Source: Sphingomonas donggukensis
GTDB lineage: Bacteria > Pseudomonadota > Alphaproteobacteria > Sphingomonadales > Sphingomonadaceae
Assembly (NCBI RefSeq): GCF_023674425.1
Contig: NZ_CP098401.1
Span: 1,984,001 to 2,048,000 of the forward strand
Length of the DNA: 64,000 nucleotides
Direction of reading: 5' to 3'
Under the pieces are notes generated by a model that was given only the letters and a program-made list of their open reading frames with translations, had not been told where the DNA came from and searched no databases. A program made the position numbers and the translations under genes. This document shows positions 40,644 to 41,570 of this stretch, piece by piece. Position 1 is the stretch's first letter. Every line of letters begins with the position of its first letter.

Positions 40644-41009
40644 TCAATTCTGGACGATCACCTGGATGTTCGCGCCCCCCGGCGCGATGACGTTGGCGCC
40701 GCCCGATGCGACGACGTTGGCACCGCCCGGCGCGATCACGCGCGCATCGGCAAGGGGATATTTGGTGCCCGCGATGTCGATCATCGTCGCGCCCTTGTCG
40801 GTGATGATGCGCGATCCGGCTGGCGCGAACTTGCTGACCGTCTTCTTGCGGAAATACGGGAATTTTTCGCCGTTGTTGTTGTCCCACGGCGCGCAGCCCC
40901 ACACGAAGATGTTGACCACACCGTTGCAGCCATTGGCCTGCGCCGGCGCGGCCAGCATCGTCGTCGCCAGCAGGCCCGCCGCCCCGAGCGTCGCGAGATG
41001 TCGTGTCAT
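40644..41009 (-). CDS. Small exported protein with GGAN repeats
   Basis: A 121-residue protein with a clean signal peptide (about 1-27, ending APAQAN). The mature part opens with two cysteines (NGCNGVV, WGCAPWD) and closes with three eight-residue repeats VIAPGGAN, VVASGGAN, VIAPGGAN followed by a hydrophobic end IQVIVQN. An AAGGGCAAGGA stretch precedes the start. The repeats suggest a small beta-arch structure or an adhesive or surface tail. Function unknown. Confidence 0.7.
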   Translation of the reverse strand: MTRHLATLGAAGLLATTMLAAPAQANGCNGVVNIFVWGCAPWDNNNGEKFPYFRKKTVSKFAPAGSRIITDKGATMIDIAGTKYPLADARVIAPGGANVVASGGANVIAPGGANIQVIVQN

Positions 41010-41194
41010 TCCTTGCCCTTTCGCCAGTTGAACCCGAGCGGATCGCGCGGTCGGGCGGGCGCGGCAATGCGCGTGCAACCGGGGGGCGTAGGGCCGGGAC
41101 CAAAGCGCCGGCGGGGCCGTTCGTCGCGACGAACGTCGTGTCCGTCGCGGGGGCGTAGGCTGGGACCGAGCAGGCGCGGCGCGGCGCCACCTGC
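41010..41194. other. Non-coding stretch with palindrome and direct repeats
   Basis: No convincing gene. It contains a perfect 16-base palindrome GTTCGTCGCGACGAAC (41119-41134) flanked by two near-identical copies of GGGGGCGTAGGCTGGGACC (41082-41101 and 41149-41167). These may be operator-like sites for the small exported protein gene. Confidence 0.45.
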
Positions 41195-41206
41195 CCGAAA
41201 ATGAAA

Positions 41207-41243
41207 GAGGCCGCCGGGCGCCCTGTGGCGACCCGGCGACCTC
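41207..41243 (-). terminator. Intrinsic terminator of the putative leader RNA
   Basis: Read on the minus strand: GAGG-T-CGCCGGG, a 13-base loop, CCCGGCG-G-CCTC, then TTTCATTTTC. Eleven pairs plus one mismatch followed by a T-rich tract make this the best intrinsic terminator seen in the window. Confidence 0.7.
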
Positions 41244-41378
41244 CGACATGGTCAGCGGCCGGAGAGCTCCAGCCCGGGAGACCATGCGGACCGCTTCGCT
41301 GTCACTGGCGGCGTTGACTGGAGGAGGATTCCTCCCGCGCGCCCTGCCGATGGAGGTGATCCACCGGCGCGTGACAGA

Positions 41379-41435
41379 TCAGCGGCGCGTCTCCCGAACG
41401 AACTGAACCGACCCCATTGCTGAACCATGAGACAT
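41379..41435 (-). CDS. 18-residue leader-type peptide ORF
   Basis: An ORF encoding MSHGSAMGSVQFVRETRR starting at 41435, one base after a perfect AAAGGAGGTGATCC ribosome-binding site; from the GGAGG core the spacing to ATG is seven bases. The peptide has no run of one amino acid, so it is not a classical amino-acid attenuator leader. The unusually perfect SD argues that it is translated. It is too short for any homology argument. Confidence 0.4.
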   Translation of the reverse strand: MSHGSAMGSVQFVRETRR

Positions 41436-41570
41436 CGGATCACCTCCTTTCGCTTGTTGAACACGAGTGCGCCGTCACCCGACGCACCACCAATGTGAAT
41501 CGCGGGCGCGCCGCTTTCAAGTCTTGTAATGCGCGCAAAACCCGTCAGGATCATGCGCCTTGCCTGCGGC

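Follow-up and report, generated by a model that had tools for sequence, protein, structure and literature searches.

The minus strand of the window, the 64,000-nt stretch of Sphingomonas donggukensis DNA analyzed here, carries what is, to judge from sequence comparison, a real stand-alone small-RNA gene that is conserved together with its reading frame and its helices. The predicted product is a structured RNA of about 290 nt which would also serve as a small mRNA. A 14-nt Shine-Dalgarno (SD) sequence would bring 30S subunits to an 18-codon ORF, and the ORF from codon 3 to its stop is predicted to pair in a long helix with the sequence that lies between the stop and the terminator. Because the closing arm of this helix (P1') would be made last, just ahead of the terminator, ribosome loading and folding would be mutually exclusive: the nascent RNA could take up a ribosome, and the finished, ribosome-free RNA would close its initiation region. 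We judge it probable (about 0.6) that the element is such a small mRNA/sRNA, in which folding of the last-made 3' arm competes with ribosome loading. We infer the promoter, the transcript ends, translation and the competition itself, and the output would lie in the act of translating or in the exposed 3' strand, not in the peptide sequence.

Layout and distribution of the element

The features of the locus are listed below in window coordinates, in the order of the predicted transcript.

41515..41520, minus strand: putative -35-like element TTGAAA, a pattern seen by eye in upstream regions
41492..41497, minus strand: putative -10-like element CACATT, from the same upstream comparison
near 41486, minus strand: predicted transcription start
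41468..41486, minus strand: 5'-terminal hairpin, from the fold of the predicted transcript
41437..41450, minus strand: extended SD of 14 nt, AAAGGAGGTGATCC
41379..41435, minus strand: 18-codon ORF, MSHGSAMGSVQFVRETRR, with its stop codon
41381..41429, minus strand: 5' side of the ORF-long helix, running from codon 3 to the stop; P1 consists of the first 11 nt, CAUGGUUCAGC
41346..41368, minus strand: local hairpin with GGATCACCTCC inside, found in near relatives only and with an altered loop there
41362-41352, minus strand: 11-nt complement of the SD, GGATCACCTCC, with 74 nt between the arms
41320..41337, minus strand: second local hairpin, GGGAGGAATCCTCCTCC; GGGGGGTATCCTCCCCC in relatives
41247..41295, minus strand: 3' strand of the ORF-long helix, a near-invariant block
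41247..41256, minus strand: 3' arm of P1, GCUGACCAUG, 2 nt ahead of the terminator stem
41197..41244, minus strand: intrinsic terminator, a GC stem/hairpin with a T-rich tail

The perfect SD, the 18-codon ORF, the 11-nt complement 74 nt away and the T-tailed terminator were all reported in a preliminary description of this DNA, and each was confirmed at its position. In many of 37 upstream regions one can recognize by eye TTGNNN, a 17-nt spacer and CACATT or CAGATT, and the inverted repeat of the 5'-terminal hairpin, again by eye, stays in relatives while its sequence differs.

A DNA search of 61 genomes found the element in 34 of the 36 other genomes of the genus, which bears out the preliminary view of a self-contained unit outside any protein gene, though not of the SD/GGATCACCTCC switch that was placed within it (see below). 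The two genus genomes that lack the element are 84% and 81% complete, and one distant genome (G051) gave a 24-nt match only. Each of the first 30 loci has the SD and a short ORF that starts MSHGSA. The conserved parts of the genus alignment are the ORF DNA, the block GCATGGTCTCCCGGGCTGGAGCTCTCCGGCCGCTGACCATG and the terminator, and the SD is identical in 46/46 homologues, rows which were picked with this core. The genome of the window has a single copy according to both the RF01867 and the DNA searches. Eight genus genomes have a second locus (L031-L038) of the CC2171-like class II type (MSHC..., with the SD often AAAGGAGGTGGTC).

The core AAAGGAGGTGATCNNRTGTCTCA occurs in 127/246 genomes of the order and 21/385 of the class; within the order it is found in 127/163 genomes of the window's family and 0/83 of other families. 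A broader core matched 89/387 class genomes, and its reversed-pattern control matched none. The core-pattern scan returned at least 120 stretches, including ones from Sphingomonas, Novosphingobium, Sphingobium, Erythrobacter and Bosea as well as Methylobacterium, Microvirga, Roseomonas, Azospirillum and Brevundimonas. The 192 distinct elements were divided into 111 of class I (CATGGT or CATGGA after the start) and 81 of class II (all others), and conservation of the core among them is by construction since they were found by a pattern that includes the SD and UGUCUCA. The ORF has 18 codons in 96 of the 111 class I elements. Azospirillum-like relatives (L047, L136, L164, L178, L247) have a longer ORF, 56-59 codons, whose start (MSHGAKPV...LLTAGVASA) resembles a signal peptide. 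Peptides that are MSS(D/E)...EQPS-like or related lie behind the same SD-start core in further members of the class, with no clear closing stem (L223, L224, L232, L233, L237, L273-L277, L281, L288, L289). Among plasmids, the window query gave one 29-nt match (Azospirillum), two further queries gave none, and a class II query gave partial matches in 9 records with no annotated feature beneath them.

The opposite strand of the SD matches the usual tail of bacterial 16S rRNA. A 16S-derived fragment or pseudo-gene was rejected, because the sequence is conserved with its ORF and helices across the genus. No tRNA or tmRNA was found in the window. The SSU rRNA model gave no match in the whole genome of the window, and the control genomes with matches did not include Caulobacter.

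Pairing of the ORF start

The actual partner of the ORF start is the 3' arm adjoining the terminator, which complements codons 3-5 or 3-6 across the 192 elements (four class I elements have no arm by pattern). The fourth base of CAUN may be any of the four letters, and the partner matches it in each case, as in CATTGTC/GACAATG, CATCGCA/CGCGATG, CATAGTT/GACTATG and CATGGTTCAGC/GCTGACCATG. For class II, 59 of the 81 elements were aligned, and 22 that were near-duplicates, unusually long or without a clear arm were left out. In this alignment 97.3% of P1 cells are paired, compared with 20-57% when the arms are slid, and there are 14 double changes versus 3.2 in shuffled controls. Since leaving out the 22 elements favors P1, all 81 were also tested, and 69/81 have a run of at least five Watson-Crick pairs that begins at the C of CAU. 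Among the 26 class II elements with an arm other than CATTGTC, 21 match their own arm downstream (at least five Watson-Crick pairs), versus a mean of 9.9 and a maximum of 16 matches with arms shuffled 1000 times.

The genus alignment has 46 rows collected with patterns for both 3' motifs, including the arm, with one locus (L153) removed by hand. Its ORF-long helix comprises 40 pairs from codon 3 to the stop, with 96.0% of cells paired versus 33-50% when slid. Double-change cells number 35 versus 14.5 in shuffled alignments and fall mostly in helix 5; counted by pairs the signal is weak, with 6 pairs that have a double change versus 4.2, a value that 44/500 shuffles reached. All ten P1 pairs are invariant in the genus, and P1 gives no covariation there because it does not vary. 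Energies for the window RNA place the P1-closed fold at -159.6 kcal/mol and the best fold, which has local hairpins, at -159.9, a difference of 0.3. In single-sequence folding the mean probability of P1 exceeds 0.5 in only 9/46 genus and 33/59 class II sequences.

A related arrangement is found in another large alphaproteobacterial family (f29), where the SD-start core is present in 94 of the 149 genomes sampled at one per genus. The pre-terminator arm in this family is an anti-SD sequence, CCYAUCUCC or CCCACCUCC. In an alignment of 33 rows (30 loci from the 94 matching genomes plus four earlier loci, less one duplicate), the arm forms six or more of the seven pairs with GGAGGUG in 30/33 rows, and 95.7% of SD:anti-SD cells are paired versus 54-71% when slid. 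With the SD fixed, variation is confined to the arm side and double changes are absent. Given that the arms have different targets, the same lock would be reached by different pairings in the two branches, on codons 3-6 in one and on the SD in the other. This raises the speculative and rather doubtful prospect of a superfamily of mRNA/sRNA hybrids throughout the Alphaproteobacteria, with RF01867 as one corner of it, that would gauge initiation-competent 30S subunits by setting an SD that matches most of the anti-SD tail against a late 3' arm that locks the start region, all within a single round of transcription.

The preliminary description had proposed instead a switch in which GGATCACCTCC (41362-41352) hides the ORF's SD by pairing. 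The 11-nt complement is present, and a bare accident is unlikely: an exact SD complement of at least 11 nt arose in a fraction of 0.00035 when the element was dinucleotide-shuffled 20,000 times, and within the 64-kb window exact GGATCACCTCC occurs at the two arms only. The analogous SD:anti-SD closure by an arm ahead of the terminator in f29 (30/33) also speaks for such a device. The complement is not conserved, however. One of 46 genus homologues, that of the window's own genome, has a complement of at least 8 nt to the SD, and the longest complement is 7 nt or shorter in the other 45. In near relatives the corresponding hairpin contains GGAAGCCCTCC or GGAAGACCTCC, or is missing altogether. 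Examination of the two arms for covariation or loss of pairing found a gap at the site in 32-34 of 46 rows, letters at those columns in the remaining 12-14, and not one double-sided change. Forcing the SD/GGATCACCTCC helix yields -139.1 kcal/mol compared with -159.9 for the best fold, a cost of about 21, and its pair probability is 0.0; the pairing is disfavored because the complement is held in a stable local hairpin. Conservation and energy together rule out SD/GGATCACCTCC pairing as a conserved switch, and as first proposed the switch is highly improbable.

Relation to RF01867

The best match of the element in a permissive Rfam scan is RF01867, with 28.8 bits and an E value of 2.2e-4 (3.7e-4 in a second scan). 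Since this score is below the curated cut-off of 75 bits, the element is best described not as a member of the CC2171 sRNA family but as its divergent homologue in sphingomonads. The two have in common the 5' core with an extended SD and UGUCUCAU, the start-region helix and the terminator. The RF01867 5' core, AACAAN(N)GAAAGGAGGUGAUCC NN UGUCUCAU, is present in the window element, as is a helix of the RF01867 type that joins the ORF start with the pre-terminator arm, which in the window has about the same energy as the alternative fold. The window element differs in its longer 3' block, its ORF-long helix and MSHGSA in place of VSHC.

Of 20 class-wide loci scanned, 19 matched RF01867 at E values of 0.05 or less, and five were over the cut-off. 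The model matched 61/289 class genomes (9 over the cut-off), Caulobacter vibrioides alone among 14 control genomes, and 33/200 genomes of the phylum, where all of the matches listed are from Alphaproteobacteria. No Rfam family reaches its cut-off for the window element, and the four Rfam matches that 41150-41560 gives at E values as high as 5 include no riboswitch family. The one match in the window at cut-off is elsewhere, a fluoride riboswitch (RF01734; 18903-18966, minus strand; 56.3 bits) just upstream of an ORF whose product, with the translation MLTLLYVALGGAIGTIARY..., is presumably CrcB/FluC-like.

Rfam describes CC2171 as an sRNA of Caulobacter. The available text of PMC5596092 gives the homologue MH_s33 of Mesorhizobium huakuii as a sequenced transcript of 215 nt, and that of PMC11701678 states that one covarying pair was added to RF01867 in Rfam 15. 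A literature search covering main texts found no functional account of CC2171/RF01867. This family, whose function was not found in print, would gain a sphingomonad branch and a coding frame from the present analysis.

Selection, alternative explanations and known systems

The open frame is maintained. In class II the stop is ahead of the 3' arm in 80/81 elements and the ORF has 19-26 codons in 79/81. Of the 45 elements in which the motif was found, 43 have TGG in frame, always at 36, 39, 42 or 45 nt. In class I, variability by codon position is 0.38/0.39/0.26 bits for 24 genus ORFs and 1.15/1.15/0.85 for 42 other ORFs, the third position being lowest in both sets. Third codon positions are thus not the most variable. 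What is selected therefore seems to be the shape of the RNA or its being translated, with selection acting on the open frame and the RNA rather than on the peptide.

These observations bear on the view that the peptide itself is the product, with the locus a micropeptide gene that has a strong SD. Maintenance of the class II frame in 3-nt steps, recurrence of residues such as TW, and the 56-59-codon, signal-peptide-like ORFs of the Azospirillum-like relatives are what one would expect of such a gene. Low variability at class I third positions is not, nor is the divergence of the peptide sequences between the classes, and the four peptides tried match no Pfam or NCBIfam family at cut-off, all of which makes a micropeptide gene unlikely. 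The frame and stop kept in class II also weigh against a pure sponge, which would have no need of them. A trans-acting sRNA or sponge could titrate anti-SD sRNAs through its SD-like 5' segment or pair with mRNAs through its freed 3' strand, with the ORF secondary. The 5' segment is the most conserved part of the element, and Caulobacter SisA-D carry a 10-mer with the anti-SD signature and interact with CrfA, according to the portion of PMC12559287 available, a paper whose title presents an RNA sponge. Such a role is possible, though we would not favor it.

A cis-acting attenuator, in which the leader ORF and terminator set expression of the next gene by ribosome-dependent read-through, has the classical layout on its side, and in the window the next ORF downstream, with its ATG at 41009, shares the strand of the element. 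The segment 40645-41009 on the minus strand, downstream of the RNA, encodes a small secreted-looking protein of 121 aa with GGANV repeats. The proteins encoded on either side of the window element matched nothing in Pfam or NCBIfam. Heuristic gene calls place the nearest downstream gene on the same strand at 117/184 loci, and some gene types are repeated within clades, which we take to be BCAT-like, amidase, DUF188-like and RNase R-like. The same calls give an opposite-strand gene at the other 67/184 loci and no conserved same-strand target across the 184. A general cis role is unlikely because the downstream strand is mixed and the gene differs even within the genus. Moreover, the arm pairs beside the terminator rather than with it, and for this reason no antiterminator is visible. 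The DUF1127 gene that would accompany an attenuator of the duf1127 type is absent downstream, where the next ORF lacks any match in these two databases and the genes of other loci are diverse. An attenuator therefore has a decidedly low probability.

The preferred reading, a small mRNA/sRNA whose start is closed by its own 3' arm, has parallels in several known systems. Small mRNAs of the hok type prevent initiation by pairing the 5' and 3' ends of the full-length RNA. Their product Hok, a hydrophobic toxin, is accompanied by an antisense RNA, whereas the window ORF would encode a short polar peptide. The nearest printed mechanism found is the duf1127 leader of Sinorhizobium (S.) meliloti, whose uORF is proposed by the authors to monitor ribosome availability (PMC12218461, in its available part). 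The two are alike in that early ORF codons are hidden either by pairing or by the ribosome. In that account, the duf1127 leader is presumed to be Rho-dependent, controls a downstream DUF1127 gene and has the ribosome-binding site itself as the pairing partner (PMC12218461), whereas the window RNA ends in an intrinsic terminator and is followed by no conserved gene. Like rnTrpL/peTrpL, as presented in the accessible text of PMC10117765, the window element would be a small RNA whose short ORF is translated, translation being predicted here; rnTrpL is leaderless and linked to tryptophan genes, and the window RNA has an extended SD with no trp genes around it. The same text reports that the 23-aa SEP1 of S. 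meliloti has the top translation efficiency among non-annotated sORFs (PMC10117765). Ribosome profiling in Caulobacter, as given in the available part of PMC4117421, indicated that two earlier ncRNAs are translated and that most start codons lack an SD. Extended SDs are conspicuous where most starts have none, and if the reading proposed here is true, an SD joined to a start that can be locked would give direct access to the way in which these bacteria sense the availability of ribosomes.
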